Part shown: positions 7,644-31,152 of the stretch, in pieces
Layout of the letters: each line of letters starts with the position of its first letter
Numbering within the stretch: the stretch's first letter is position 1
Assembly: GCA_007695365.1 (NCBI GenBank)
Contig: REDV01000075.1
Coordinates: 1 to 32,832 of the forward strand
From: Cryomorphaceae bacterium
GTDB taxonomy: Bacteria; Bacteroidota; Bacteroidia; Flavobacteriales_D; SKUL01
Reading direction: 5' to 3'
DNA: 32,832 nucleotides
Translations under genes and position numbers: made by a program
Notes under the pieces: model-generated
Seen by the model: only the letters and a program-made list of their open reading frames with translations
What the model was told of the DNA's origin: nothing
The model's database searches: none

Positions 7644-7668
7644 TTTTCGCTTTTTCGGATGATGCGTG

Positions 7669-8313
7669 CTATTTGAGCATGGGCATCAGTAGTTTCTCTT
7701 CCACAAAGGTGTGAATTTTCAAATCATTGGAGAGATTCTGTAAGCGGAGAACGAGTATGTGGCACGGATCAAATGACTTAGATGTAGTTTGTTCGCTCAG
7801 CATTTCAATAATCTGATCGAGCGCAGCTGTTTCATCGTGGTGCGCATGAAAGCAGTCCTGACCCGCTTTTAATCCCTTATTGAAGGCTTGAAAATCATGT
7901 TCTTCTTCGCGAATATGTTCAATAAGGGCTCTTTCAAATACCTCGTATAGAGTGTGGCAGAGATGCAGTGAAAAATGCTCAGGACGGTCAGCAAGCACTC
8001 GAGAGAACGATAAACTGATTTGCGGCAGAGCGTGATTCAGGTAGTAATTGTGGTTGCGCTGTAGCTCTGCAATTACGGCTTGTTTGGTGAGCACCCGGGT
8101 GGCAGGACGGCCTGTATCGTTGTTTCCGAGTTCTACAAGGGTGTGAAGTAGCTCTGTGTCGGGTGTGTGATTTCCGCAATAGTCCATTACACATTGGCTC
8201 CAGTTGCTCTCCTGCTGGTTGAGGATGTTGAGAATTTCTTTTCTGCGTGTGCTCATACCGTTGGCGGCTTGAACAGGCTCTGTTTTTCGGTTTGCTTTCT
8301 TTCGTTCGTTCAT
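7669..8313 (-). CDS. Hemerythrin (HHE)-domain di-iron protein, Ric/YtfE-like
   Basis: A cytosolic 214-residue protein without signal peptide. The C-terminal two thirds carry the spaced ligands of a hemerythrin-like four-helix bundle: NHNYYLNH (His88, His94), HIREEE (His133, Glu137), FHAHHDE (His158/159, Glu161) and KIHTFVEE (His201, Glu205). The layout resembles the RIC/YtfE/ScdA family, which binds a non-heme di-iron centre and is linked to repair of Fe-S clusters after nitrosative or oxidative stress. The N-terminal segment has two cysteines (41, 46), but not the ScdA CXXC arrangement that I know. Met20 is an alternative start. It lies between hemN and the CXXCH lipoprotein on the same strand, suggesting a redox or NO/O2 stress context. 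Confidence 0.8.
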   Translation of the reverse strand: MNERKKANRKTEPVQAANGMSTRRKEILNILNQQESNWSQCVMDYCGNHTPDTELLHTLVELGNNDTGRPATRVLTKQAVIAELQRNHNYYLNHALPQISLSFSRVLADRPEHFSLHLCHTLYEVFERALIEHIREEEHDFQAFNKGLKAGQDCFHAHHDETAALDQIIEMLSEQTTSKSFDPCHILVLRLQNLSNDLKIHTFVEEKLLMPMLK

Positions 8314-8389
8314 AGCTCAAATTTCTTTGATTCGTTTCGTACTTCCACTACCACATTTATGGTATTCAATTGGTTTTTATTCACATCAC

Positions 8390-9742
8390 TTATACTGTTT
8401 GGCTAAACATGGGGGTTTCTGCCCGTTTTTCAGCCAGTAAGGGGTCAAGGGCCATACATACATTGCGCACAAAGGGCTTTCCGGCCTCAGTTATCCACAA
8501 TTTGTCAGGAGTCAGTACAACCAGTTCATCCTTCAACAGAGAATCCAGGCGCCGTTCCAAATCGTTCCAACCGGCCAGTGAGGCTTCCTTCTCCGTCCAG
8601 GTGGTTTCGAAACGTGTCATCAGGCTGAGGATTTGCTTGCGGATGATCATGTCTCTTTCGGACAACAAGTGCCCGGCAGTGATGGACATCTTGCCGGCAA
8701 AAGCTGCCTCCATATATACCTCAATGGTTTTTTCATTCTGCACAAAGGCATCCCATGAATCGCTGATAGAGCTTGCTCCAAGTCCGATGAGCAATTGGGT
8801 TTGACCAGTGGTATAACCCATAAAGTTCCGGTGAAGTCTGCCTTCATCCGATGCAATGCAAAGCTCATCGTCGGGTAAGGCAAAGTGATCCATTCCAATT
8901 TCGCGGTATCCGTTTTCCTCAAACATCTTTTTACCGAGGTCGTACAGGGCGCGTTTCTCTTCGTTATTGGGCAGGTCTGCTTCGGTAAACATTCGCTGCA
9001 CTTTTGATTTCCACGGCACATGCGCATAACTGTAAAAGGCAATGCGTTCAGGCCGGAGCTTGTTAACCAGCTGAACAGTGTTCTCAACACTGCTCAGCTT
9101 TTGAAGCGGAAGCCCGTAAATCAGATCGAAATTGATAGACTCATAGCCGCAATCCCTCGCTTCTTCCACCGCTTTTTGCACTTGCTCAAAGGGTTGTATG
9201 CGGTTCACTATCTGTTGCACATTCGGGTCAAAATCCTGAATGCCCAGACTCAAGCGACGGAATCCGTGTTTGTAAAGTACTTCGAGATGTGCGCGTGTAG
9301 TATTGTTGGGATGGGCCTCAAAGCTCATAGCGTATTGCGGGTGCAGAGATGCTTCCCTGAGCAAGGCTTTCATCAAAAAGTCGAGGTTTTCCGGCGAAAA
9401 GAAGGTAGGAGTGCCGCCCCCGAGATGAATCTCGCGGATAAGGGGTTTTTCGCCCCAGTGGTCGAGATAGATCTGCCACTCAGCCAGCAAGGCATCAATG
9501 TAGGGCCGCTCTACAGCGTGGTTGCGCGTTATGCGTTTATTGCAACCGCAGTATGTGCAAAGGCTTTCGCAATAGGGAAGGTGCAGGTACAGACTGATAC
9601 CCTCGGTTTTGTTAGAGGCATCAAAAGCCAATGCTGCGCAACGCATCCAGGTGTGCTGATCCGGAAGATTACTCCAAAACGGAACGGGTGGATAGCTGGT
9701 GTAGCGCGGGCCGGCTACATTGTATTTTCTAAAGAGATCCAA
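8390..9742 (-). CDS. hemN: Oxygen-independent coproporphyrinogen III dehydrogenase
   Basis: A radical-SAM enzyme that decarboxylates coproporphyrinogen III to protoporphyrinogen IX when oxygen is low. The 450-residue product starts with the HemN-specific KYNVAGPRYTSYPP and holds the CX3CX2CXC cluster motif as CESLCTYCGC (Cys58, 62, 65, 67). EIHLGGGTPTFFSPENL and the NFDLIYGLPLQ strand follow. This N-terminus distinguishes true HemN from HemW. The start is a TTG at 9740-9742: no ATG or GTG lies between the in-frame upstream TAG and the conserved KYNVAGP. It follows folC by 65 nt and precedes the di-iron gene by 76 nt. I saw no clear FNR box upstream. Confidence 0.95.
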   Translation of the reverse strand: MDLFRKYNVAGPRYTSYPPVPFWSNLPDQHTWMRCAALAFDASNKTEGISLYLHLPYCESLCTYCGCNKRITRNHAVERPYIDALLAEWQIYLDHWGEKPLIREIHLGGGTPTFFSPENLDFLMKALLREASLHPQYAMSFEAHPNNTTRAHLEVLYKHGFRRLSLGIQDFDPNVQQIVNRIQPFEQVQKAVEEARDCGYESINFDLIYGLPLQKLSSVENTVQLVNKLRPERIAFYSYAHVPWKSKVQRMFTEADLPNNEEKRALYDLGKKMFEENGYREIGMDHFALPDDELCIASDEGRLHRNFMGYTTGQTQLLIGLGASSISDSWDAFVQNEKTIEVYMEAAFAGKMSITAGHLLSERDMIIRKQILSLMTRFETTWTEKEASLAGWNDLERRLDSLLKDELVVLTPDKLWITEAGKPFVRNVCMALDPLLAEKRAETPMFSQTV

Positions 9743-19286: not shown

Positions 19287-21026
19287 TTAATTGGCGCCGA
19301 GTCCGCGGGGGCTACCCACACGAGCCATTGCACATCGGAAACCAATGGTGGCCGTTGACTGGCGCTCATCCAGAAAACGACGTGTTCCGGGGTGGAGGTA
19401 GTATGCACGGTCTCTCCATGAGCCGCCTTTGTAAACACGGGCGCGGTTGCTAACCAAGGTAGCTGTTTGCCAGTCGTACATCATGTTGCCCTCGGGTGCT
19501 TCCTGCGCAAAATAGATGCTTGAGCGGTGGTCGCCGTCAAGGAAGTCGATATTGTCGGCAATTTGGTAGTTGCGGCGGTCAATGTTTTCTTCCTGGGTTA
19601 CGTTTCGCATACGGAGCTGACCGGGGGTTTGCACTACAAAATCAGAGATTCCTTTCAGCAATTTGGGGGCAATCCTCAGGTCAGTAGATTTGATCAGGTC
19701 CACTCCGTCCTGAATGCGCATGTAGGCAGCATCGTCTTTGCGGGCTTCCAGCAGTTCGTTTGCTTCCTCGGCGTAGTTTACGAGAGTTTCAAGGAGTTGA
19801 TCTTCTTCGGGAACCAGGCGGTTTTTGGTTGACTCACCAAATTTGTCGAGGTATTCCTGGATACCTTGCACATCGTACACCACTACGTCGAATTTGTCTT
19901 CGATGGCACCATCGCTGTTCAGCACTTTGGTTTGGAAAACGTTTCCGCGGTAGGGATTCAAGTCATCTTTGTCTTCGGGTGAGAGTGGACGATAAACATC
20001 CATTACCCATTCACTTACATTTCCGGCCATGTTGTAAAGGCCGTAATCGTTGGGTGCATAGCTGAACACAGGTGCAGTAATATCGGCGTTGTCATTCAGG
20101 CTTCCGGCTACTCCCATGTAGTCGCCTCGTCCGCGAACAAAGTTGGCCATCATATCGCCGTAGTAGCGGCTGTTGTTATCTCCGTTACGCACAAAGTGTC
20201 CGTTCCAGGGGTAAATTCTTCGTTCGTTGATTAATTCCTGGTAGGAGTTTCCAACAAGTCCGAAAGCAGCAAACTCCCATTCGGCTTCGGTGGGCAGGCG
20301 GTAACGGGGTAGAAGAATACCGTCTTCCATGCGCACATTGCGGGTTTCGCGGTTGGGGTTGAAGTCAATCACACCATCCACACGCTTTCCGGCTTCATAT
20401 TGGCCGGCTAGATATGCATCCGTCGAAAAGTTTTCTTCATTGGTTTGTTGCGGGAAGTGTTCAAACAGACCTTCGCGGATAAGGATGGCCTCATTTACGC
20501 GGTCGGTTCGCCAGGCGCAAAAATCGTTTGCCTGAAGCCAATTTACACCTACCACAGGGTAGTCGCGATAAGCCGGGTGACGGAGGTAGTACTCGACGTA
20601 AGGCTCGTTGTAGGCGAGCTTGCTCCTCCAAACAAGGGTATCGGGGAGGGCTTTTTTGTAGATTTCGGGGTAGTCCATGCCGTACACCCGACGCAGCCAG
20701 TAGAGGTACTCCAGCCAGTAGAAGTTGGTTACTTCGGTTTCGTCCATATAGAATGACGACACAGTAACACGTCGCGGCATGTGGTGCCATTCGTACATAA
20801 CGTCTTGTTCGGCGCGCCCCATGGAGAATGTCCCCCCCTCAATGAGTACAAGCCCCGGCCCGGTTTCTTGCTCCAGGAAGGGAGCTTTCTCGAAACCACC
20901 GTTTCTTTCGTCGTTGTAATTCCAGCCTGTTGCACCAGATTGATCGTATTTACACGAACTCACCAGCACAGCGATACCGCCGGTCAGCATAACTCCAAAA
21001 AGGAAGCTTTTCACGGATTGTTTCAT
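19287..21026 (-). CDS. gldJ: Gliding motility/T9SS lipoprotein GldJ
   Basis: GldJ is an essential lipoprotein of the gliding and type IX secretion machinery and stabilises GldK. The 579-residue product has a lipoprotein signal ending VSSC with Cys25, then a sulfatase-modifying-factor-like (FGE/SUMF1) fold: LVLIEGGTFSMG, FYMDETEVTNFYWLEYLYW, YPVVGVNWLQANDFCAW, YRLPTEAEWEFAA and NMAGNVSEWVMD. The fold closes near the C-terminus with RVYKGGSWRD and IGFRCAMARV. About 170 residues are inserted before the last FGE segment, as in GldJ rather than simple FGE proteins. The FGE catalytic cysteine pair is absent, so a structural role is expected. It follows the porP/sprF gene by 31 nt and is adjacent to murF and near porU. 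Confidence 0.93.
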   Translation of the reverse strand: MKQSVKSFLFGVMLTGGIAVLVSSCKYDQSGATGWNYNDERNGGFEKAPFLEQETGPGLVLIEGGTFSMGRAEQDVMYEWHHMPRRVTVSSFYMDETEVTNFYWLEYLYWLRRVYGMDYPEIYKKALPDTLVWRSKLAYNEPYVEYYLRHPAYRDYPVVGVNWLQANDFCAWRTDRVNEAILIREGLFEHFPQQTNEENFSTDAYLAGQYEAGKRVDGVIDFNPNRETRNVRMEDGILLPRYRLPTEAEWEFAAFGLVGNSYQELINERRIYPWNGHFVRNGDNNSRYYGDMMANFVRGRGDYMGVAGSLNDNADITAPVFSYAPNDYGLYNMAGNVSEWVMDVYRPLSPEDKDDLNPYRGNVFQTKVLNSDGAIEDKFDVVVYDVQGIQEYLDKFGESTKNRLVPEEDQLLETLVNYAEEANELLEARKDDAAYMRIQDGVDLIKSTDLRIAPKLLKGISDFVVQTPGQLRMRNVTQEENIDRRNYQIADNIDFLDGDHRSSIYFAQEAPEGNMMYDWQTATLVSNRARVYKGGSWRDRAYYLHPGTRRFLDERQSTATIGFRCAMARVGSPRGLGAN

Positions 21027-21057
21027 GGCTATGGTTTTGCAGATTTGTCTTAACTAA

Positions 21058-22023
21058 CTAAAAAGATGGGCAATTTATTACCCGGAACTTTCTTTTGGCT
21101 GGCTTGCAGTTAAACTGATAGGCCGCAGAAATTTCGTGTGAGCCACCGGTTCCGATGCCCAAGCGGTTCAGCGTGAGGTCGTAGCTGTAACCGAAGCGAA
21201 TGGAATTGGTTTGTACCCCCAACATAATAATTAAAGCATCTTCCCATCGGTACCAGGCACCCAGTACAAAGGGATACTTGTTTACGTACATTCCCAAATT
21301 AAGTTGCTGAAAATCTCCCTGAACCATGTAAAGGATGTTGGGAGAGAGTGTTACGTCGCTGTCGCGACCTCCAACGGGGTAGGTAGCTCCTGCGTGAGCA
21401 GTCCAGCGTCGGGGAAGACGGCTTGTACCTACAATCAGCGATTCGTTGGGTTGAGTGAGGTGGTGTGTGGCAAATCCAAAGAAGTAAGTCTCATTAAAGA
21501 GCAAAAGACCACTCGAGAAGTCGATGTTACTCACGGTACCACCACGAGGAATATCCTGTGTGGCGTAAATAAACCCTTGACGCGTGTCAATCTGGTCGCC
21601 GAACTTGAGTTTATTCCAGTCAAGAGACTTATTAAAATAGGTCACTTCAAAACCGGCCTTAATAGACCATGTTTTAGAGATAGGACGTTGGTACGAATAA
21701 ATACCGCTGATCCGGGTATTGGTTAATGTACCCGTTCCGGCCACGTCGTTTGTTACCAACAGCCCTAAACCTCCTGAAAGCGGATCTACGTGCTGGTCGT
21801 ACGACGCACTGTAGGTCACAAAGTTTCCGGAAATTGCCGGCCACTGGTTGCGATAATTCATCACAAGCCGCGGGCAACGGGCACTACCGGCAAAAGCGGG
21901 GTTCAGGTACAGAGGATTCGCGTAGAACTGGGAAAATTGCGGGTCCTGGGCCTTTCCTTCCTCTTGCCAGAATACTGTAAGTACCACTGTCACAAGTGCT
22001 ACCGGCAAATATCTTCTCAACAT
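21058..22023 (-). CDS. PorP/SprF family type IX secretion outer-membrane protein
   Basis: A predicted outer-membrane beta barrel of 321 residues. The family N-terminus is plain after the signal peptide: QDPQFSQFYANPLYLNPAFAG. Repeated amphipathic strands follow (for example WSIKAGFEVTYFN and GVQTNSIRFGYSYDLT), ending SHEISAAYQFNC. PorP/SprF proteins attach to the PorK-PorN/GldK-GldN ring or partner specific adhesins. I use the ATG at 22023 (MLRRYLPVALVTVVLTVF), which gives a clean signal peptide ending GKAQ; the upstream ATG at 22056 would add 11 polar residues. It heads a minus-strand unit with gldJ and is divergent from porU. Which member of the family it is cannot be decided here. Confidence 0.92.
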   Translation of the reverse strand: MLRRYLPVALVTVVLTVFWQEEGKAQDPQFSQFYANPLYLNPAFAGSARCPRLVMNYRNQWPAISGNFVTYSASYDQHVDPLSGGLGLLVTNDVAGTGTLTNTRISGIYSYQRPISKTWSIKAGFEVTYFNKSLDWNKLKFGDQIDTRQGFIYATQDIPRGGTVSNIDFSSGLLLFNETYFFGFATHHLTQPNESLIVGTSRLPRRWTAHAGATYPVGGRDSDVTLSPNILYMVQGDFQQLNLGMYVNKYPFVLGAWYRWEDALIIMLGVQTNSIRFGYSYDLTLNRLGIGTGGSHEISAAYQFNCKPAKRKFRVINCPSF

Positions 22024-22106
22024 ATCGCTCAAATGTGCAATTTTTTGAAGCTCCAATAATACGAATTATTTTGAAATGCCATCATTCGTTAAAATTGCAG
22101 CAATAT

Positions 22107-22114
22107 TATTTTTG
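22107..22114 (+). promoter_or_regulatory. Putative promoter -7 element for porU
   Basis: TATTTTTG matches TAnnTTTG about 75 nt before the porU ATG, in the 166-nt divergent region shared with the porP/sprF gene. No TTG lies at the normal spacing. No equally good element was found for the opposite direction. Confidence 0.4.
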
Positions 22115-22189
22115 ACTGTGCGTTTAGGCAATGTTTACTCTGAAAACTAAGTCCAACTAACGCGGCAAGATAACCATTTTAGAGGTACA

Positions 22190-25100
22190 ATGAGAAATAG
22201 GCTTTTTTACCTTTCCTTTTGTGTGGTGCTCCTGTTGATATTGCCGGAGTTTGTTTTGGCTCAACGCTCACGTGCAGAAACTCCTGCGCGAACGGAAACG
22301 CGGGGAGAAAAAAGTGCTTACCTGCTTCAATGGGAAGGTGTCAAAGAAGAGAAGCTTTCTGAAACGGCCTACATTAAGCTGTTGATGCTGCACGGGGCCC
22401 AGTACCGGCTCGAACACCACAAAAATCCCATTGTAATTGTGGAGGTGCCCGTGAATGGTCGTCCTGAAAGATTAAATGTTACGCTCACCGATATGGTTTT
22501 TGAACCGCTCTCCTCAGCAGAGGTGGCAGCGCTTGATGCCGATTCCATTGCGGACGATATTACAGTTCAGACGCACATTGGTATTCAGCGCGGCAAGTTT
22601 ATCGCGAAGGCCGAATTTGTTCCCATCCGCAGAAATCAGCGCAGTGGCGGATATGAAAAACTGGTTTCATATGACTACACCCACTATGTGAGCGGCACGG
22701 TGCCTGCGCCGCCCAGAGCAGCGAGAACAGGTTCGTCGGTGTTGTCGTCCGGAGAGTGGTACCGGGTTGGCGTGCCACGCGACGGGATGTACCGTATTAC
22801 CTATCAATACCTGAAGGATATTGGCGTAAACGTGGAAGCCATCACACCCGATCAAATCAACATCTACGGCAACGGAAGCGGTTTGCTACCCTTTCAGAAC
22901 AGCGTTTTTCGGCACGACGACCTTCAGCCCAACGCGATTCAGGTCGTCGACGGAGGTGATGGCTCTTTTGACCCCGGTGATCATATCCTGTTTTTTGCCA
23001 AAGGGCCTCACCGATGGCGCTACGATTCTCAAAACGATGAATTCCGACATGTAAAACACCTGTACTCGGATACGTCCTATTATTTTATTGGTATCGACGC
23101 CGGGCCGCCCAAGCGCATCGCTACGGAGCCTTCGCTTCCACAACCACCCACGCATCAGGTGAGCGTTTTTGATGATTATTCCTTTCACGAGCTCGATCAG
23201 GTGAATCTTATTAAGTCGGGGAGGAATTTTTTCGGTGAGCTGTTCGATATCCAAACCTCTTACAGCTTTTCGGGCGATCGCTTTACCTTTCCCAATATCC
23301 GCACTGATCAAACGGCCAAGGTTAGGGTGCAGGCTGCTGTTCGGCATATTCAGGTAGGAGGCTCCAGTACGGTGTTTGTGAATGTAGCCGGTCAGACCAG
23401 CGGGTCGTTTGCGGTTTCAGGCGTATCGGGCAACTACGCTCAAAGCTTTGCAAGGCTGGGCAGTACCCGGCTTGATTTCAATCCTTCGAACCCGGAGTTC
23501 AATATTGAAGTGTCCTATCAGCCGCCATCCTCAAATAGCAGGGCGTGGCTCGATTTTATCTCGGTGAATGTTCGCCGCAATCTGGCAATGTCAGGAAACC
23601 AAATGCTGTTTCGCGACCAGCAATCGGTAGGAGCAGGTAATATTGCACAGTTCAACCTGAGTTCTGCCAGCTCGGTAAGGCGCATTTGGGATGTTACCGA
23701 CCCCACTACAGCGGTTGCTATTGATTACGGTCCGGATGGCCCCGGTATTTCATTTACTCGCTCGGCATCACAGCGCAGAGAATATGTGGCCATTACCAAT
23801 TTCAACTACCCGACACCGACCTTTTTCGGAAAGGTGCCCAATCAGAACTTGCACGCCTTGGTGTCAGGTCAAACCATTGATATGATTATTGTAACCCACC
23901 CGCGGTTTTATGCCGAGGCAATGGAACTTGCAGCATATCATACCCATCACCCTGTAGACCCTGTTTACACAGAAGTGGTTACCAACCAACAGGTCTACAA
24001 TGAGTTTTCGTCGGGAACACCTGATATAACGGCCATCAAAGATTTGATGCGCATGTTTTACGACCACGCCAACGGCAACGAGGACCTGATGCCGAAGTAT
24101 TTGCTGTTGTTTGGTGATGGCTCATTCGACAACCGGAGTCGCGCAGAGAGCAATACCAATTTTGTATTGACTTATCAAACCGAGAACTCTACAGATCCGA
24201 TTGGCTCTTTTGTATCCGACGATTATTTTGGTTTGCTTGATTTTAATGAAGGAGAAGGCAACAACGATCTGGTTGATATCGGAATTGGTCGTCTTACCGT
24301 GAAAACGCGTCAGGAGGCGCAGGCTGTGGTTCGCAAAATAAAGAACTATACCACCAGTGATTTCGGCAGCGAGGTTGCTCATTGCTCAGGAGTGGGCTCC
24401 AATGTTTTTGGGGAGTGGAGAAATCGCGTGATGTTTATCGGTGATAACGGTGATAATAATCTGCACATGAGCCACGCACGGGATCTGGCCGCGATTGTTG
24501 AGGAGAATCATCCAGACTACAATATAAGCCTGGTGTTGCTCGATGCCTATCCGCGTATCACAACCCCCGGCGGAGATCGTATTCCTGAGGTTAATCGCAT
24601 CATACGCGAAGGAGTAGATCGCGGGATGTTGCTCGTAAACTATTCCGGACACGGGGGAGAAGTGGGCTGGGCGCACGAGCGGATTCTGGATGTTTCAACC
24701 ATTCGAAACTGGACGAACTTTAACGCTCTTCCGCTTTTCGTGACAGCCACCTGCGAATTTACGCGCTTTGATGACCCCGGCCGGACCTCAGCCGGTGAGT
24801 ACGTGCTGTTAAACCCCGATGGAGCTGGAATTGCACTTCTTTCAACCACCCGGCTTGTGTTTGCGAGTGCCAATTTCTTCCTTAATCAGGCGTTTTACGG
24901 CGTTGCGCTCAACAACAATGTTTTTGAAGACCTCCGACTGGGGGATATTGCGCGATTGACCAAAGTAAATGGTCCTCCGGGAGCCAATACGCGCAGTTTT
25001 TCACTGGTGGGCGACCCTGCCGTAAAACTGGTATATCCCCAGCAGAAAATTTACACCACCTCCATTACCGATACCCTGGGGAATCCGCTGGATACGCTCA

Positions 25101-26116
25101 AAGCACTGGGGAACGTAAAAGTAACCGGCTATGTTGGCGATTTGAATGGATCCGTGCTATCGGATTTCAACGGCGTGCTGACGGCCACCATTTTCGACAA
25201 AGCATCGAATGTAACAACCCTAGCCCAGGCAGGGCCGCCATTTGAATTCTCTACCCATCAAAATGTAATATACCGTGGCAAGGCGAGTGTGAGTAACGGG
25301 CAGTTCAGCTTTTCGTTTATTGTGCCCAGGGATATTAACCTCGCAGTGGATTCAACAGGGCGTTTCAGTTATTATGCTGTGGGCGAAGAGTACGATGCAC
25401 ACGGCCACGCGGCCAATGTTACGGTAGGTAGTATTGATGAAAATGCAGCCATCGACGAAGAAGGCCCAGAGATAAAGCTGTTTATGAACGACGAGAATTT
25501 TGTGTTTGGCGGGATGACCGATGAGAACCCTGTTATTTTTGCCAAACTTTTTGACGACAGCGGTATTAATATGGTAGGAACCGGAATTGGCCATGACATT
25601 ACGGCAATTAAGAACAATGATTCGTCCAACCCCATTATCCTCAACGATTTTTACGAATCGGATTTGGATACCTATCAGAGCGGCACGGTGCGCTACCAAC
25701 TGAACGACCTGGAAGAGGGGCGCTACACCCTCAACCTCAAGGCCTGGGATGTGCACAACAACTCGGGCGAGGCATTCACCGAATTTGTGGTTGCCGAAAG
25801 CGATGAGTTCGCGCTCTCACACGTACTGAATTACCCCAACCCCTTTACCACATATACCGAGTTTTTCTTTGAACACAACCAGGTTTGTACATTTTTAAAC
25901 GTACAGATTCAGGTGTTCACTGTTTCCGGCAAGCTCGTAAAGACCATCAATACAGTTTCCAACACAAATGGCTTTCGGGTAGAGCCCATTGCGTGGAATG
26001 GTTTGGATGACTATGGCGACCAACTCGCCCGTGGTGTGTACGTCTATAAAGTAAAGGTACGAACACCTTCCGGCGACAGAGCAGAGAAGTTTGAGAAGTT
26101 GGTAATTTTGAAATGA
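22190..26116 (+). CDS. porU: Type IX secretion system sortase PorU
   Basis: PorU is the cell-surface sortase that removes the C-terminal signal of T9SS cargo and links it to A-LPS. The 1308-residue product has a signal peptide (to about residue 24, FVLAQ), a long N-terminal beta-rich region, and a gingipain-type C25 peptidase domain. The dyad is seen as His821 in YSGHGGEVGWAHERIL and Cys855 in VTATCEFTRFDD, followed by AGIALLSTTRLVF and FSLVGDPAVKL. The C-terminal about 80 residues are FlgD/CTD-like (NYPNPFTTYTEF, WNGLDDYGDQLARGVYVYKV). The stop lies at the promoter of porV. The ATG at 22190 gives a proper signal sequence. Confidence 0.96.
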   Translation: MRNRLFYLSFCVVLLLILPEFVLAQRSRAETPARTETRGEKSAYLLQWEGVKEEKLSETAYIKLLMLHGAQYRLEHHKNPIVIVEVPVNGRPERLNVTLTDMVFEPLSSAEVAALDADSIADDITVQTHIGIQRGKFIAKAEFVPIRRNQRSGGYEKLVSYDYTHYVSGTVPAPPRAARTGSSVLSSGEWYRVGVPRDGMYRITYQYLKDIGVNVEAITPDQINIYGNGSGLLPFQNSVFRHDDLQPNAIQVVDGGDGSFDPGDHILFFAKGPHRWRYDSQNDEFRHVKHLYSDTSYYFIGIDAGPPKRIATEPSLPQPPTHQVSVFDDYSFHELDQVNLIKSGRNFFGELFDIQTSYSFSGDRFTFPNIRTDQTAKVRVQAAVRHIQVGGSSTVFVNVAGQTSGSFAVSGVSGNYAQSFARLGSTRLDFNPSNPEFNIEVSYQPPSSNSRAWLDFISVNVRRNLAMSGNQMLFRDQQSVGAGNIAQFNLSSASSVRRIWDVTDPTTAVAIDYGPDGPGISFTRSASQRREYVAITNFNYPTPTFFGKVPNQNLHALVSGQTIDMIIVTHPRFYAEAMELAAYHTHHPVDPVYTEVVTNQQVYNEFSSGTPDITAIKDLMRMFYDHANGNEDLMPKYLLLFGDGSFDNRSRAESNTNFVLTYQTENSTDPIGSFVSDDYFGLLDFNEGEGNNDLVDIGIGRLTVKTRQEAQAVVRKIKNYTTSDFGSEVAHCSGVGSNVFGEWRNRVMFIGDNGDNNLHMSHARDLAAIVEENHPDYNISLVLLDAYPRITTPGGDRIPEVNRIIREGVDRGMLLVNYSGHGGEVGWAHERILDVSTIRNWTNFNALPLFVTATCEFTRFDDPGRTSAGEYVLLNPDGAGIALLSTTRLVFASANFFLNQAFYGVALNNNVFEDLRLGDIARLTKVNGPPGANTRSFSLVGDPAVKLVYPQQKIYTTSITDTLGNPLDTLKALGNVKVTGYVGDLNGSVLSDFNGVLTATIFDKASNVTTLAQAGPPFEFSTHQNVIYRGKASVSNGQFSFSFIVPRDINLAVDSTGRFSYYAVGEEYDAHGHAANVTVGSIDENAAIDEEGPEIKLFMNDENFVFGGMTDENPVIFAKLFDDSGINMVGTGIGHDITAIKNNDSSNPIILNDFYESDLDTYQSGTVRYQLNDLEEGRYTLNLKAWDVHNNSGEAFTEFVVAESDEFALSHVLNYPNPFTTYTEFFFEHNQVCTFLNVQIQVFTVSGKLVKTINTVSNTNGFRVEPIAWNGLDDYGDQLARGVYVYKVKVRTPSGDRAEKFEKLVILK

Positions 26117-26145
26117 TTGATTTAAGCCGAAATACCTTATATTTG
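26117..26145 (+). promoter_or_regulatory. Bacteroidota-type promoter for porV
   Basis: TTG (26117-26119), an 18-nt spacer and TATATTTG (26138-26145) match TTG-N18/19-TAnnTTTG. The TTG begins directly after the porU stop codon. Transcription would start near 26152, placing the true porV start at 26158 or later and allowing porV to be made independently of porU. Confidence 0.75.
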
Positions 26146-26157
26146 CAACCCTTTTTA

Positions 26158-27465
26158 ATGACCACGATGATGCGACAATTTGTAGTCCTGACATCGCTTG
26201 TAGGCCTAAGCTTAGGCGCCTATGCGCAACAGGATATTTGCTCGGGAGTTAGTACCAATGCTATTACCGGGCGCAACGACTGCAGTAATCCGAACGTGAT
26301 TACCACGGCAGTTCCCTTTCTTACCATTGCCCCCGATTCTCGCTCAGGCGCTATGGGAGATGCCGGTGCCGGACTATCACCTGATGCCAACAGCCAGCAC
26401 TGGAATGCCTCCAAGCTTGCATTTGCCGAGAAAGACATGGAGGTTTCACTGTCGTACAGCCCGTGGTTGAGAAACCTGGTAAACGACATGCACATGGCCT
26501 ATCTGGCGGGTTATAAAAAACTCGATAAGCGCTCGGCTTTGGGTGTGTCTCTTAGATATTTTAACCTGGGTAACATTCAGTTTACCAATGATGTTGGGCA
26601 GGAAATCCGCGATTTTAAGCCCAATGAGTTTGCTTTTGATGTTTCGTACTCGCTGCTGCTCTCCGACCGCTTTTCCGGAGGTATTACTGCGCGCTACATC
26701 AACTCAAACCTCACCGGCGGCGTGATGGTAGGTGGTGCTGATTCTCGTGCAGGACAGGCATTTGCGGTGGATGTATCTGTGTTCTATATGAATGATGATA
26801 TCCGCGTGGGTGATATGCCCGCTACTTTTGCCATGGGTGCCGTAATAAGCAACATTGGTAATAAAATGGCCTACACCAACACGGCCGACAGAGATTTCAT
26901 TCCGATTAACCTGCGTTTAGGTCCGGCCTTTACCGTCGAAATTGACCGATACAATAAGTTTACGGCTGCCGTGGATTTCAACAAATTACTGGTACCGTCT
27001 CCTCCTCTTTACAATCCGCAAACAGGAGAGGTTGCTGCCGGTCTCGATCCTGATGTAGGGGTAGCCACAGGAATCATCCAATCATTTTATGATGCACCCG
27101 GTGACCCGGTTCGTGATGACGATGGAAACCCCGTTTTTAACGAAGACGGCACGGTTCAAATCCGTCCTGGAACAGTTTTTCGCGAAGAATTGCGCGAAAT
27201 CACCATTGGAGGAGGTCTTGAATACTCTTACGCCGACCAGTTTTTTGTGCGCGCAGGGTACTTCCACGAGCACGCTACCAAAGGAAACCGCAAGTTCATC
27301 ACCGCCGGCGTAGGGGTGGCTTTCTCCATGTTTGCCATAGACTTCAGCTACATCGCAGCGGTAAACAGAATCAACCCCTTGGCCAACACCCTTCGCTTTA
27401 GCCTCCGTTTGCGTTTTGATGACCTCAAGAACGCTGGACGTACTCGTGAAATCGCACCCGACTAA
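26158..27465 (+). CDS. porV: Type IX secretion outer-membrane protein PorV
   Basis: PorV (LptO) is a FadL-like barrel that carries cargo from the translocon to PorU. After a signal peptide ending GAYAQQ, the family signature follows: TAVPFLTIAPDSRSGAMGDAG, then SQHWNASKLAFAEKDMEVSLSYSPWL. Amphipathic strands and a final FSLRLRFDD segment complete the barrel. A longer frame opens at ATG 26113 and overlaps the porU stop by 4 nt, but a promoter lies inside that extension, so I place the start at 26158; ATGs at 26167 and 26170 give even tighter signal peptides. An Asp-rich loop (DDDGNPVFNEDG, about residue 320) might bind calcium. ispF follows after 2 nt. Confidence 0.94.
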   Translation: MTTMMRQFVVLTSLVGLSLGAYAQQDICSGVSTNAITGRNDCSNPNVITTAVPFLTIAPDSRSGAMGDAGAGLSPDANSQHWNASKLAFAEKDMEVSLSYSPWLRNLVNDMHMAYLAGYKKLDKRSALGVSLRYFNLGNIQFTNDVGQEIRDFKPNEFAFDVSYSLLLSDRFSGGITARYINSNLTGGVMVGGADSRAGQAFAVDVSVFYMNDDIRVGDMPATFAMGAVISNIGNKMAYTNTADRDFIPINLRLGPAFTVEIDRYNKFTAAVDFNKLLVPSPPLYNPQTGEVAAGLDPDVGVATGIIQSFYDAPGDPVRDDDGNPVFNEDGTVQIRPGTVFREELREITIGGGLEYSYADQFFVRAGYFHEHATKGNRKFITAGVGVAFSMFAIDFSYIAAVNRINPLANTLRFSLRLRFDDLKNAGRTREIAPD

Positions 27466-27467
27466 GA

Positions 27468-27950
27468 ATGAAGATTCGGGTAGGATTTGGTTATGACGTG
27501 CATGAACTACGCGAGGGTCACCCTTTTTGGATAGGCGGTGTACAACTCGAACATCACAAAGGTGCTTATGGCCACTCCGACGCGGATGTGCTGCTTCACG
27601 CTATTTGCGATGCAATTCTGGGTGCACTCAGCCTGCGAGATATCGGTTACCACTTTCCCAATACCGACCCTAAATACGCAGGTATCGACAGCAAGGAATT
27701 GTTGCGGGAAGTGATTGAGCTGATGCGCAGCAAGGACTTTGAAGTAGGTAACATTGACTCAACCGTTTGCCTGGAAGCCCCCAAGGTGAACCCTCATATC
27801 CCCGGGATGCAACAAGCCATTGCCGAAATATGCGGCATTGAGAGCTCAGATGTAAGCATCAAAGCCACCACCAGTGAAAAGCTGGGCTACGTAGGCAGGG
27901 AAGAAGGAGTGTTTGCGCAAGCAGTGGTGCTGCTTCAATCCAACCACTGA
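27468..27950 (+). CDS. ispF: 2-C-methyl-D-erythritol 2,4-cyclodiphosphate synthase
   Basis: IspF makes the cyclic diphosphate in the MEP pathway of isoprenoid synthesis. The 160-residue product starts RVGFGYDVHELREGHPFWIG, with metal ligands Asp10 and His12 and the third ligand His44 in GHSDADVLLHAICDA. DIGYHFPNTDPKYAGIDS and, at the end, IKATTSEKLGYVGREEG are family signatures. Length and motif order are complete. It starts 2 nt after porV and is probably cotranscribed with it. It converges on the DUF4956 gene with a 13-nt gap. Confidence 0.97.
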   Translation: MKIRVGFGYDVHELREGHPFWIGGVQLEHHKGAYGHSDADVLLHAICDAILGALSLRDIGYHFPNTDPKYAGIDSKELLREVIELMRSKDFEVGNIDSTVCLEAPKVNPHIPGMQQAIAEICGIESSDVSIKATTSEKLGYVGREEGVFAQAVVLLQSNH

Positions 27951-27963
27951 TTTCTACATCAAT

Positions 27964-28710
27964 TTAGTCAACTCTTGAGTCGCGGTCCTCGTAAGAGTGC
28001 GTTTGCTCGTCTTCGTAGTAGTAAATGCGGATATTGGCTGTATCGCGAAGAAAATCAATGTTTCCTATCTCCACACGGTTGATATTAAGACCTGTTCGTA
28101 CTTTCAGGTCGGCCATCAGGTCTTCATACTTTTCAGGCAGTATAAGGTCAATACGCTCATAGGTAATTTTCTTGGTGGTTTCGTGTTTAAGAAGGAAAAC
28201 ACGCTCCAGGGCATAGGCCACAATGATGATGGCACCATTGGTAACAACCAACTCGGTGAGACTTACTTTTTCGTTGGCCAGGGCGTTCATCACGGAAACC
28301 CCAATCACAAGGAATAGGTAGGTCATTTCCTTAATCGGGATGGTATCCGTACGGTATCGGATTATGCCGAAGATGGCAAACAGACCCAGTGCAAAACCCA
28401 GTTCAAGCTTCACGTTCTCGAGCAGCGAGCACAAGAAGAAGATACTTACGCTGATCAGCACGTAGGTAAACAAATAGTCTTTGCGTTTAGTGATGGGATA
28501 GTAAATCATCCTCACCATAATAAGCACCGCGATCAGGTTAAAAGCAAAGCGCGTAATTGTGCGAACAAAGCTATTGGCCTCAAATATGGGTGTGCCCATA
28601 AACTCCAAAGCACCGGAGCTTCCTCTTCCAAACCATTCAACACCCGATTGAACAGCCGGACTAAAGCCCGCGGACTGAAAATTCAGCAAAAAGTCATGCA
28701 ACCAGGTCAT
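27964..28710 (-). CDS. DUF4956 domain-containing membrane protein
   Basis: A 248-residue inner-membrane protein with about five hydrophobic segments: 50-70, 79-97, 103-118, 128-146 and 152-174. Between segments 3 and 4 lies the family-typical loop FGIIRYRTDTIPIKEMTYLF, basic at one end. The soluble C-terminal part, about 75 residues, is charged (ILPEKYEDLMADLKVRTG) and ends in an acidic-aromatic tail (YYYEDEQTHSYEDRD). The function is unknown. Its ATG overlaps the end of the VTC-domain gene by 17 nt, so the two are translationally coupled. This pairing is recurrent for the family as I know it and suggests a joint role with polyphosphate. Confidence 0.88.
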   Translation of the reverse strand: MTWLHDFLLNFQSAGFSPAVQSGVEWFGRGSSGALEFMGTPIFEANSFVRTITRFAFNLIAVLIMVRMIYYPITKRKDYLFTYVLISVSIFFLCSLLENVKLELGFALGLFAIFGIIRYRTDTIPIKEMTYLFLVIGVSVMNALANEKVSLTELVVTNGAIIIVAYALERVFLLKHETTKKITYERIDLILPEKYEDLMADLKVRTGLNINRVEIGNIDFLRDTANIRIYYYEDEQTHSYEDRDSRVD

Positions 28711-29449
28711 TACTCAATTTTTTGATGGTTCTAATCTTTGGTTTGAAATTATTGGCTTTCAGGTGCTTGTTTAACATGGCGGAGCCAACACAGTACTTGC
28801 TGAGCCGGGTGGGGCGTATCTTCAATTTTTTGGCGGCCTCGGCAAAAGGGCTCAGTCGATCCATACGCTCTTGTTTCAGCTCGGCTATCACGACGTCGTG
28901 TAACTCCAAACGTTGGTCGCCAAACGAAAATTCGAGGTCGAAATCAATGGTAAGGCGCTCTTTTCGCTCATTGTTTACGAAGGTAATGCGCTTGAAAGAG
29001 TTCCACAAACGAGGTAATAAATGTTCATGCACTCCTGCATGATTCAGCACAAACTCCTGCTGTTCTTTACTTAGCTCTTCACGAAAGTCGTCCACAACAA
29101 TTCGCTGCTTGATGGTTTCGTCTTTATTGGTTTTTCTCTTAACTTCCAAAAAACAAAGGTCGCTGTCCACATACTTTCGGAATCTCACCTTGCTTCGGTT
29201 GCGTTTACCGTTTTGATGTTGAATGTAAAATGACCTTTCGGGGGTATCGAGATATAATGTCCGGTATCGGTTACAGCGCACGCCATTCACCTCCAGCACG
29301 CGGTACTCACCGGCAATACCCTCAATAACTTCAGCAATCAGTGAGCGCGCAAACAGGTACTTGGTGTCCGTGCGCTGCATCAGGCGCACAGCATCCATTT
29401 CAGCAAGCGAAATCGGCTGAAATCCGGCTATAAGGGTTTCAATGTTCAT
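28694..29449 (-). CDS. VTC-domain polyphosphate polymerase-like protein
   Basis: A soluble 251-residue protein of the triphosphate-tunnel fold found in the catalytic part of yeast Vtc4, which makes polyphosphate from ATP. Tunnel-type residues appear in the expected order: Lys30 (RTDTKYLF), Arg63 with RTLYLDT, Arg89/Arg91 (SKVRFRKY), Glu102/Lys104/Lys106 (LEVKRK), Arg116 (KQRIVV), Arg165 (KERLTIDFDLEF), Glu190/Lys192 (IAELKQE) and Lys218 (RLSKYCVG). There is no SPX sensor domain and no membrane segment. The membrane part may be supplied by the DUF4956 protein, whose gene overlaps it by 17 nt. Polymerase activity is inferred from the family. Confidence 0.88.
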   Translation of the reverse strand: MNIETLIAGFQPISLAEMDAVRLMQRTDTKYLFARSLIAEVIEGIAGEYRVLEVNGVRCNRYRTLYLDTPERSFYIQHQNGKRNRSKVRFRKYVDSDLCFLEVKRKTNKDETIKQRIVVDDFREELSKEQQEFVLNHAGVHEHLLPRLWNSFKRITFVNNERKERLTIDFDLEFSFGDQRLELHDVVIAELKQERMDRLSPFAEAAKKLKIRPTRLSKYCVGSAMLNKHLKANNFKPKIRTIKKLSNDLVA

Positions 29450-29462
29450 GCAGGTAAGCCTG

Positions 29463-29470
29463 CAAAATTA
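29463..29470 (-). promoter_or_regulatory. Putative promoter -7 element of the VTC-DUF4956 unit
   Basis: Minus-strand TAATTTTG matches TAnnTTTG, 13 nt before the VTC-domain ATG. The only nearby TTG is 11 nt upstream, too close for a standard -33 element. Confidence 0.45.
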
Positions 29471-29560
29471 GAATTATTCCGCAATCATGTTACGAAATTG
29501 AGAACATCGTGTTATCAGCAAACCACTTCGGAAATGGAAATTCGTAATTTGGCCCACCTA

Positions 29561-30052
29561 ATGAAAGCGCAAACCATCGAGATTAAAGTTGAGGTTTTTC
29601 CCGACAGGGATGCCCTGCCAGGGGTTCAAAAACAATTGCTGGATATGGCTGACGAGGCCTCAGGGCGAGCTTATGCACCATACTCCCGCTTTCATGTTGG
29701 AGCGGCGGTACTCCTGGAGAATGGCGAAACCATTACCGGAAGCAACCAGGAAAACGGAGCTTACCCGTCTGGACTTTGCGCCGAACGCGTTGCCCTTTTC
29801 GCTGCTAAAGCCCGCTTTCCCTCTGTTCCTATTGTTGCGCTTGCCATTTTTGCCGACGGAAAGGATATGCCCGTCTCTCACCCGGTTTCACCCTGCGGGG
29901 GTTGCCGCCAGGTGATGAGCGAATATGAATTAAATCAACCCGGCCCATATCCTGTTGTTTTTCAAGGTGGAAAAGGGGAGGTGTACCGCACCGGATCGGC
30001 TGCCGCGTTGCTCCCGCTGCAATTCCGCGGTAACTTCCTTAAAAAGGACTAA
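29561..30052 (+). CDS. cdd: Cytidine deaminase
   Basis: The zinc enzyme of pyrimidine salvage converts cytidine and deoxycytidine to uridine forms. Counted from the chosen ATG (163 residues), the motifs are AYAPYSRFHVGAAV (38-51), the CAE active-site motif (Cys73, Glu75) in GLCAERVALF, and the second zinc motif PCGGCRQVM (Cys112, Cys115). That is the small homotetrameric CDD arrangement with three cysteine ligands. Upstream in-frame starts exist (TTG 29498, ATG 29534), but the family begins near KAQTIEIKV, and the AT-rich TAATTTGG just before 29561 looks like a promoter remnant. It precedes pdhA, an order also known from F. johnsoniae near porV. Confidence 0.93.
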   Translation: MKAQTIEIKVEVFPDRDALPGVQKQLLDMADEASGRAYAPYSRFHVGAAVLLENGETITGSNQENGAYPSGLCAERVALFAAKARFPSVPIVALAIFADGKDMPVSHPVSPCGGCRQVMSEYELNQPGPYPVVFQGGKGEVYRTGSAAALLPLQFRGNFLKKD

Positions 30053-30079: not shown

Positions 30080-30087
30080 TATATTTG
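30080..30087 (+). promoter_or_regulatory. Promoter -7 element of pdhA
   Basis: TATATTTG is an exact TAnnTTTG match about 30 nt before the pdhA ATG at 30118. The -33 region lacks TTG. A TTG that would lengthen the pdhA frame (30085) lies inside this element and is therefore unlikely as a start. Confidence 0.6.
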
Positions 30088-30117
30088 TACCCCGAAACCC
30101 TTTTGACGACCCGAAAT

Positions 30118-31152
30118 ATGTCAACCAAAACTGCAAGTAACAAAAAGAAAAAAGCAGCTAACTCCAACGAGTTCAGTAAAGAAACATACGTAAACTGGTT
30201 CGAGAGCATGCTCCTGATGCGCGTTTTTGAAGAGCGTTGTTCCGCCCTTTACATTCAGCAAAAATTTGGAGGCTTTTGTCACCTGTACATTGGTCAGGAA
30301 GCCATTCTTGCCGGTATGGTTTCTGCCATGAAAAAAGACGATAACGTGATTACGGCCTACCGCGACCACGCTCATCCTCTGGCCCTCGGTACCGATCCAA
30401 ACCTCGTAATGGCCGAGTTGTACGGAAAGCAAACCGGACTTTCAAAAGGTAAAGGTGGTTCGATGCACATGTTCGATGTTTCTCGCCGGCTTTTTGGCGG
30501 CCACGGAATTGTAGGAGGCCAGATTCCCCTCGGAGCGGGTATCGCACTTGCAGAGCAGTACAAAGGCACCAAAAATGTAACCTACTGCTTTATGGGCGAC
30601 GGAGCCGTGCGTCAGGGTGCTTTGCACGAGACTTTCAACATGGCCATGACCTGGAAATTGCCTGTGGTCTTCGTGATTGAAAACAACAACTACGCCATGG
30701 GAACCTCGGTGGAACGCACTTCCAATGTACACGAATTGCACAAAATCGGCCTTTCGTACGATATGCCCTCCATGCCCGTTAATGGTATGCGCTGCGAAGA
30801 TGTGCACCACGGCTTTGCCGAAGCCGCAGAACGCGCTCGAAAAGGCGATGGACCTACGCTGCTCGATGTGAAAACCTATCGTTACAAAGGGCACTCCATG
30901 AGCGACCCTCAGCATTACCGCACCAAAGAGGAAGTTGCCGAATACAAAGCGCAGGACCCCATTGAGCAGGTGCTGAAAACCATCAATGAAAATAAATACC
31001 TGAGCGAAAAGCAAATTGAAGCCATTCGCAAAAAGGTGAAAGAGCAGGTAGATGAAGCTGTGAAATTTGCTGAAGAATCACCGTTTCCACCGGCCGAAGA
31101 GCTCTACAAAGACGTGTACCTGCAGGAAGATTACCCATTTGTGAACGACTAA
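30118..31152 (+). CDS. pdhA: Pyruvate dehydrogenase E1 component, alpha subunit
   Basis: The thiamine-diphosphate-binding alpha chain of the pyruvate dehydrogenase complex. The 344-residue product has a Lys-rich start (SNKKKKAANSNEF), YRDHAHPLALG, GKGGSMHMF, and the ThDP motif beginning CFMGDGAVRQGALHE (Gly160-Asp-Gly) and closing at ENNNYAMGTS (Asn189/190). The phosphorylation-loop-like YRYKGHSMSDPQHYR follows. The beta subunit (pdhB) is not in the window, so the heterotetramer needs a partner encoded elsewhere, a known arrangement in Bacteroidota. pdhC follows after 17 nt. Confidence 0.96.
   Translation: MSTKTASNKKKKAANSNEFSKETYVNWFESMLLMRVFEERCSALYIQQKFGGFCHLYIGQEAILAGMVSAMKKDDNVITAYRDHAHPLALGTDPNLVMAELYGKQTGLSKGKGGSMHMFDVSRRLFGGHGIVGGQIPLGAGIALAEQYKGTKNVTYCFMGDGAVRQGALHETFNMAMTWKLPVVFVIENNNYAMGTSVERTSNVHELHKIGLSYDMPSMPVNGMRCEDVHHGFAEAAERARKGDGPTLLDVKTYRYKGHSMSDPQHYRTKEEVAEYKAQDPIEQVLKTINENKYLSEKQIEAIRKKVKEQVDEAVKFAEESPFPPAEELYKDVYLQEDYPFVND

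Follow-up and report, generated by a model that had tools for sequence, protein, structure and literature searches.

The described systems closest to the gene pair studied here are the VTC complex of yeast, the TTM (CYTH) hydrolases and cyclases, the Pel loci of Gram-positive bacteria and the tripartite HlyD-type exporters. In yeast VTC, according to the section cited, the first membrane helices contribute basic residues that line the channel and are required for vacuolar polyphosphate (PMC9911596). K458 of Vtc4p is named as catalytic, and TTM hydrolases have four glutamates at sites that are basic in Vtc4p (both from cited parts of PMC4641920).

Accessory genes of Gram-positive Pel loci include CotH, polyphosphate polymerase and DUF4956 genes (PMC7112168, passage cited), and the association of VTC and DUF4956 genes is already published for these loci. 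A Clostridium perfringens locus has VTC genes near CotH (PMC2879425, passage cited). The cited parts of PMC12345266 report that in S. intermedius aggregation persists upon deletion of SIR_1593 (VTC), that deletion of SIR_1592 gives less aggregation and more Pel, and that a CotH mutant shows reduced Pel; they interpret SIR_1592 as MgtC plus ACT, and state that the CotH-VTC-DUF4956 arrangement is not found outside Pel loci. From its position and description, SIR_1592 is apparently the DUF4956 gene. Our literature search returned no paper naming DUF4956 together with the VTC domain, and in open PMC full text, phrases on the export, secretion or translocase of polyphosphate led to 11 papers of which, judging by title, one is bacterial (PMC11604172, on polyphosphate accumulation in Lacticaseibacillus, where 'polyP export' occurs once).

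The locus

The window, i.e. the whole stretch of 32,832 nucleotides analysed here, carries the following features around the pair.

26113-27465, plus strand: PorV gene (Pfam search)
27468-27950, plus strand: ispF (YgbB), flanking context (PF02542, E 2.6e-67)
27964-28710, minus strand: DUF4956 membrane protein, 248 aa, with five predicted helices and a C-terminal ferredoxin/ACT-like domain (PF16316)
28694-28710, minus strand: 17-bp overlap of the VTC and DUF4956 frames
28694-29449, minus strand: VTC-domain (triphosphate-tunnel) protein, putative polyphosphate polymerase, 251 aa (PF09359)
29463-29470, minus strand: TAATTTTG, -7-box-like, 13 nt upstream of the VTC ATG
29498-30052, plus strand: cdd (cytidine deaminase), flanking context (PF00383, E 2.8e-14)
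30085-31152, plus strand: E1 dehydrogenase gene (Pfam search)

The original prediction described two overlapping genes, VTC and DUF4956, on the strand opposite to their neighbours porV-ispF and cdd-pdhA. Both points hold: the two reading frames are intact on the minus strand with ATG starts, their Pfam matches are strong, and the plus-strand neighbours identified with Pfam are those expected. The 17-bp overlap suggests translational coupling. Upstream, TAATTTTG resembles the Bacteroidota -7 box, TAnnTTTG, a likeness that could arise by chance.

Searches of the 3.5-Mb source genome give a single match for each of the two families, both at this locus. PPK1 also has one match. CotH-family matches number nine when this genome is searched alone, spread over contigs C41, C73, C76, C78, C102, C117 and C145, and eight when the phylum is searched. 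The genome also holds four DUF2490 matches away from the pair. A DUF2490 gene beside CotH in this genome is not claimed, the copy most similar to our DUF2490 profile being about 3 kb off a CotH-profile gene with other genes between. The genes neighbouring the pair include no HlyD-like adaptor, TolC-like channel, DUF2490 barrel or CotH gene, and its direct neighbours, ispF and cdd, are not pel genes. Near the pair, at 19287-27465, FGE-sulfatase-type, C25 peptidase and PorV genes form a type IX secretion cluster; we presume the first to be GldJ/GldK-like and the second PorU-like.

Linkage of VTC and DUF4956 genes

Co-occurrence, proposed with the original prediction as a check, was surveyed in 247 genomes of the phylum, with plasmid records and 14 control genomes covering other groups. 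VTC is present in 43 of the 247 and DUF4956 in 68, and all 43 VTC genomes have both. Of 48 VTC hits, 45 immediately precede DUF4956 on a shared strand; two others have DUF4956 on the opposite flank, no more than 4 kb away, and the last is a fragment on a contig devoid of a DUF4956 hit. The placement of the pair is thus more than chance, given that each family has a single match in the source genome and that adjacency recurs in 45 of 48 cases. On the other hand, DUF4956 is not solely a VTC subunit, because 25 of the 68 genomes that carry it lack VTC. Replacement of PPK1 by VTC was considered and rejected, PPK1 being found in 223/247 genomes and, as counted by eye, in 41/43 VTC genomes (G134 and G078 are those missing it).

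A second sample, the best 80 of 536 loci found with DUF4956, leans to close relatives. There VTC lies directly upstream in 74 of 80, two loci being at contig edges and four having no VTC. Overlap of the frames is frequent among these 74 pairs, most commonly by 11 bp and by 17 bp in seven. In one of them, L145, the VTC gene that precedes DUF4956 is split in two ORFs, either because the gene is broken or through an error in the sequence. DUF4956 frames of 315-316 aa occur at L124 and L163. The 778-aa VTC frame of L106 is no natural VTC-DUF4956 fusion: it holds the VTC domain alone, at 518-743. A MAG titled Euryarchaeota (L143) shows VTC, DUF4956, ispF and porV in the order of Bacteroidota and is possibly mislabelled.

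Among plasmids, one and the same set of 17 records matches both VTC and DUF4956, with the two genes adjacent and their order variable: two from Deinococcus, 12 from Alphaproteobacteria (Aminobacter nine, Shinella two, Nitratireductor one), two from Actinomycetota and one from Pseudoalteromonas. The latter carries at 7661-9657 (L119) a C-terminal VTC remnant that looks broken, beside DUF4956 and Porin_O_P genes. Three of the 14 controls, Bacteroides ihuae, Corynebacterium glutamicum and Methanosarcina acetivorans, possess both families. Moreover, subtypes of the two proteins pair unmixed, giving 19 pairs of type A and 26 of type B, the pair G022:C91, cut by a contig start, having been assigned to type B by hand.

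The VTC protein

The window protein matches PF09359 with E 7.8e-27 and 94.8 bits (cut-off 23). As predicted, it lacks SPX and membrane domains: at a Pfam E of 0.001, PF09359 is the only domain in its 251 residues. NCBIfam assigns it no family, and alone it finds no match in a PDB sequence search; a profile of 34 VTC sequences including the window protein has Vtc4 (3g3q, E 1.6e-15) as first PDB match. Its predicted structure (pLDDT 95.1) is closest in Foldseek to yeast Vtc4 (3g3r, E 1.3e-11, TMq 0.60). In VIA it is compared best with Vtc3 (9umg_E, Z 17.7) and Vtc4 (3g3r, Z 17.2, rmsd 3.2 Å over 211 aligned residues), against Z 15.3 for a cyclase-like entry and 15.2 for a hydrolase, the top non-Vtc matches; Vtc4 entries fall to Z 13.3 and overlap this range, so that the margin in favour of Vtc is modest.

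The basic tunnel residues, which the original prediction held to be kept, are so for the most part. In the alignment, with Vtc4 numbering, R264, K281, R361 and K458 are identical in 34/34 sequences, R196, R266, K294, E426 and K428 in 33/34, and K200, R373 and S457 in 32/34. Conservation of the tunnel in relatives, on which the original prediction could have failed, is therefore found at these twelve positions. Two others depart from it: T198 is replaced by an acidic residue in all 34 sequences (Asp in 20, Glu in 14), and R253 is not kept, being His in 22 and Lys in nine. In the window protein R26 and K192 are basic, and K218 is invariant across 34/34.

The acidic position bears on another reading, in which the tunnel of the VTC protein serves other chemistry, performing hydrolysis or transferring phosphate from ATP or a triphosphate to another acceptor, for instance a glycan or lipid that is exported afterwards. 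The T198 site should correspond, from the spacing of the motif, to one glutamate of the hydrolase AtTTM3, and Asp or Glu there in every sequence recalls the patch of acidic residues in TTM hydrolases (PMC4641920, passage cited). Hydrolase and cyclase folds also score nearly as high as Vtc folds, and there are the published links to Pel loci (PMC7112168, passage cited) together with one locus lying among sugar-polymer-like genes. We nevertheless hold this chemistry to be rather unlikely: the R196 position is basic in 34/34 sequences and that of K428 in 33/34, the lysine catalytic in Vtc4p, K458, is kept throughout (catalysis as named in the passage cited from PMC4641920), and Vtc subunits remain the best fold matches. 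Taken together, model and alignment show a soluble protein of the triphosphate-tunnel type that has the Vtc4 fold and most of the tunnel residues. That it is a polyphosphate polymerase is our best guess rather than an established fact.

The DUF4956 protein

The partner matches PF16316 with E 2.2e-54 and 184.2 bits (cut-off 30.6), and Pfam gives it no other domain at E 0.001. Its predicted structure (pLDDT 84.7) displays helices at 45-74, 78-98, 103-120, 126-143 and 151-170, followed by a soluble ferredoxin/ACT-like domain at about 177-244. The membrane protein of about five helices with a basic loop that had been proposed is thus recovered in the model, the loop being TKRKD at 74-78. From the distribution of charge, we suggest that the N-terminus is outside and the C-terminus cytoplasmic.

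R118 and R120 are present in 42/42 Bacteroidota rows of the alignment. When plasmid rows are included, R120 is found in 36/36 and R118 in at least 90%, the latter being absent from the alphaproteobacterial rows L116 and L122. Type A rows (21) mostly retain R54, R67, K77 and K127, whereas type B rows (15) do not.

Neither the single protein nor its profile gives a significant match to a solved relative by sequence. The model has no Foldseek match with E at or below 0.001 among solved folds, and in VIA reaches a Z of at most 5.4, scattered over unrelated proteins; neither program points to a known channel fold. This does not show that the predicted structure is a new fold. NCBIfam gives weak, unrelated matches only.

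The ACT-like domain raises the question of whether DUF4956 might instead be an MgtC-like ACT regulator or sensor of the VTC enzyme or of envelope export, offering no conduit, with polyphosphate made in the cytosol. One type B relative has a weak match to MgtC (E 4.1e-5, 24.3 bits, below the cut-off of 31.4), the model weakly resembles aspartokinase ACT-containing entries, and in the cited parts of PMC12345266 SIR_1592 is read as MgtC plus ACT and its loss raises Pel, as would fit a regulator. The window protein itself has no match to MgtC (PF02308) at 0.001. The two arginines found in every Bacteroidota row speak against such a role, as do the adaptor and channel genes that follow DUF4956 at L213, L217 and L232, where no other inner-membrane pump gene is evident nearby. 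We regard a purely regulatory DUF4956 as rather unlikely.

Envelope partner genes

Gene neighbourhoods were compared in a set of 41, comprising the window and L071-L110, which holds 39 of the 45 adjacent pairs and two DUF4956-only loci and spans 19/19 type A and 20/26 type B pairs. In 32 of the 41 there is a gene for either a HlyD-like adaptor or an outer-membrane barrel of the DUF2490 family. The HlyD-like cluster is found in 18 and the DUF2490 cluster in 14, never both together (0/41), and they follow the subtypes, barrels being confined to type A (14/19) and adaptors to type B (18/20). These groups, like that of CotH, are BLAST clusters of which few members were checked against Pfam: adaptors of L093 and L096 reach HlyD_3 and those of L092 and, from outside this set, L235 stay below any HlyD cut-off, while barrels of L073, L074 and L077 reach DUF2490. 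According to the passage cited, DUF2490 is a putative porin family of function not established (PMC4827864); a DUF4956-DUF2490 pair of B. thetaiotaomicron is one row of an iron-response table (PMC10434189, table cited). Among the best 80 of 536 loci, 41 have DUF2490 no further than 2.5 kb away and on the same strand, and one has a HlyD-like adaptor at up to that distance.

One locus, L232 (G062), brings together CotH, DUF4956, a HlyD-like gene, OEP (TolC-like), VTC and a lamin-tail protein gene, in this order and on a single strand. The gaps or overlaps between them are short, and each exceeds its own Pfam cut-off. The surroundings of DUF4956 were also inspected in 18 of the 25 genomes having DUF4956 without VTC. 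Adaptor-like and channel-like genes follow DUF4956 in 13 of them (L213-L225) as judged with our own profiles, that of the OEP channel having been built from the same proteins that it then detected; Pfam OEP is reached in L217, L230 and L232 and not in L213 or L225. L230 has an OEP gene and no adaptor hit, and L226-L229 have neither. This counts against a role limited to polyphosphate: since adaptor and channel genes follow DUF4956 where VTC is lacking, its cargo need not be polyphosphate.

Porin_O_P genes follow DUF4956 in the Pseudoalteromonas plasmid (E 2.4e-47) and at L231 (E 2.5e-7), both of them loci with no adjoining intact VTC.

CotH and phosphate-related neighbours

CotH-family genes are present in 42/43 VTC genomes versus 54/204 others (Fisher p 1.8e-19, ignoring kinship). 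Counted by genus, they occur in 32/33 with VTC and in 40/89 without it (p 2.3e-8, from tallies and again ignoring kinship). G238 is the one VTC genome of the phylum sample where CotH is absent. It is also absent from the control Bacteroides ihuae, which has the pair, and present in the controls Corynebacterium glutamicum, Methanosarcina acetivorans and Bacillus subtilis. Closer to the pair, CotH clusters c2 (13) and c49 (2) account for 15/41 neighbourhoods, with Pfam confirmation in L075 and L097. A CotH-profile hit is found anywhere in the locus in 28 of the best 80 of 536 loci, a number that may include other domains as the profile, made from whole proteins, also catches these; weak hits were left uncounted.

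On visual inspection, a signal-like stretch stands at the N-terminus of many of the CotH-type proteins encoded close to the pair, and those of L097 and L235 have matches to type IX sorting tails, one of the two below cut-off. Because of these signal-like starts and sorting-tail matches, the proteins are probably located outside the cytoplasm. At L085 and L235, proteins that resemble arylsulfotransferases and match type IX sorting tails are encoded near VTC and CotH genes. In L234 (7923-12039), the gene of a 900-aa protein matching CotH (E 7.8e-9) lies between VTC and DUF4956, in surroundings that by eye resemble a polysaccharide cluster.

In Deinococcus taeanensis, CotH, VTC and DUF4956 stand in a row, and the 14.7 kb viewed there contain no pel-annotated gene. 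This row qualifies the statement, in the part of PMC12345266 cited above, that the three-gene arrangement does not occur outside Pel loci.

Genes related to phosphate are also met around the pair. All four alphaproteobacterial regions viewed have a gene annotated as phytase-like after the pair (Pfam-tested in one), and one of the four has a PHO4 phosphate transporter in between; Deinococcus sp. QL22 has HAD acid phosphatase and phn-type transporter genes nearby. SdiA-regulated or phytase-like propeller proteins adjoin the pair at L093 and L094. One could imagine from such neighbours, the transporters, phosphatase and phytase-like genes and the Porin_O_P genes mentioned before, that the module imports phosphate, porins, transporters and phytase-like proteins feeding a polyphosphate store made by the VTC enzyme. 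Adaptors of the HlyD-like kind and OEP channels belong to export machinery, however, PHO4 appears in just one viewed plasmid region, and storage is already covered by PPK1 in 41 of the 43 VTC genomes. Phosphate import therefore appears very unlikely to us.

Proposed mechanism

Our preferred reading, which we put forward tentatively as somewhat doubtful on the evidence of sequences and models, is that the two proteins form a polyphosphate polymerase coupled to the membrane, and that the polymer would leave the cytoplasm, perhaps for CotH proteins at the surface. In its favour are the fold and tunnel residues, the linkage and the unmixed subtypes, the conduit genes of relatives, the PHO4 and phytase-like neighbours in Alphaproteobacteria and the frequency of CotH in VTC genomes. 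The VTC protein would extend a phosphate chain from ATP on the cytoplasmic face. The chain would then meet the basic cytoplasmic side of DUF4956 (KRK 75-77, R118 and R120) and could pass through or along its helices (R54, R67, helix 1) as in the helices of yeast Vtc1/3/4. In relatives it might be carried onward via the HlyD-like adaptor and TolC-like channel, or via the DUF2490 barrel, and polyphosphate would be used outside the cytoplasm, for example by CotH-family surface proteins or in the matrix. The window locus would supply the first two parts only, VTC and DUF4956, the remainder being a property of relatives.

Of the polyphosphate synthase-translocase originally predicted, the synthase half is well supported by inference from fold and tunnel residues, and we consider it likely; the translocase half is possible, plausible but unproven, and rests on the tight linkage, the conserved arginines of DUF4956 and the envelope genes beside many relatives. 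The minimal picture of two small subunits agrees with the window locus, where only the pair is found, but it looks incomplete because many relatives add envelope and CotH partners.

Several observations count against export of polyphosphate by the pair: the aggregation that persists in the S. intermedius VTC deletion (as reported in the cited part of PMC12345266), the acidic residue at T198, the loss of R118 in L116 and L122, the presence of PPK1 in nearly all VTC genomes, the missing CotH in G238 and B. ihuae, the two Porin_O_P genes that follow DUF4956 only where no intact VTC adjoins it, the lack of the additional partners at the window locus, and a DUF4956 model devoid of a known channel fold.

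ATP is scarce outside the cell. A bolder extension, which we judge distinctly unlikely, is that polyphosphate exported through DUF4956 and a conduit would serve as donor for secreted CotH-family kinases, which would be without an ATP supply there, in phosphorylating surface proteins or glycans. The VTC enzyme would make polyphosphate from cytosolic ATP, DUF4956 would carry it through the inner membrane, and the adaptor-channel or the barrel would carry it over the outer membrane.

These questions bear on how bacteria could bring polyphosphate to their surface and on how kinase-family proteins could act outside the cell. If export by the pair were true, this widely kept polymerase-membrane pair, with the conduits linked to it, would allow both questions to be tested in strains used in the laboratory and would suggest functions for DUF4956, DUF2490 and bacterial VTC proteins.

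Comparison with known systems

The pair shares with yeast VTC the tunnel fold and most tunnel residues of Vtc4 and, as we infer, an arrangement in which a tunnel enzyme in the cytosol is coupled to a membrane component of basic character. It differs in that the window chain has neither SPX nor a VTC-type membrane domain, and in the family's acidic T198 position and mostly His R253 position. Our searches found no sequence link between the yeast Vtc membrane parts and DUF4956; the likeness between their helices would be functional, and no shared descent is claimed.

With hydrolases and cyclases of the TTM (CYTH) group, for instance AtTTM3 and ygiF, the VTC protein has in common the tunnel fold and, if the correspondence is right, one acidic residue of the N-terminal motif. 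Unlike the hydrolases, the window protein is basic at R26 and K192, and K218 is invariant in the family.

Some relatives recall tripartite HlyD-type exporters through the HlyD-like and OEP genes following DUF4956. The inner-membrane part would here be DUF4956, which is no known pump, and such genes are absent at the window locus.

Finally, Gram-positive Pel loci also bring both protein families together with CotH nearby (PMC7112168 and PMC12345266, passages cited). The window pair, in contrast, sits between ispF and cdd with no adjoining pel gene, and the adaptor and barrel genes of many relatives are not mentioned in those passages. The wider module, an envelope conduit and CotH partners around the pair, is the part that we did not find in the passages cited and so report as new.
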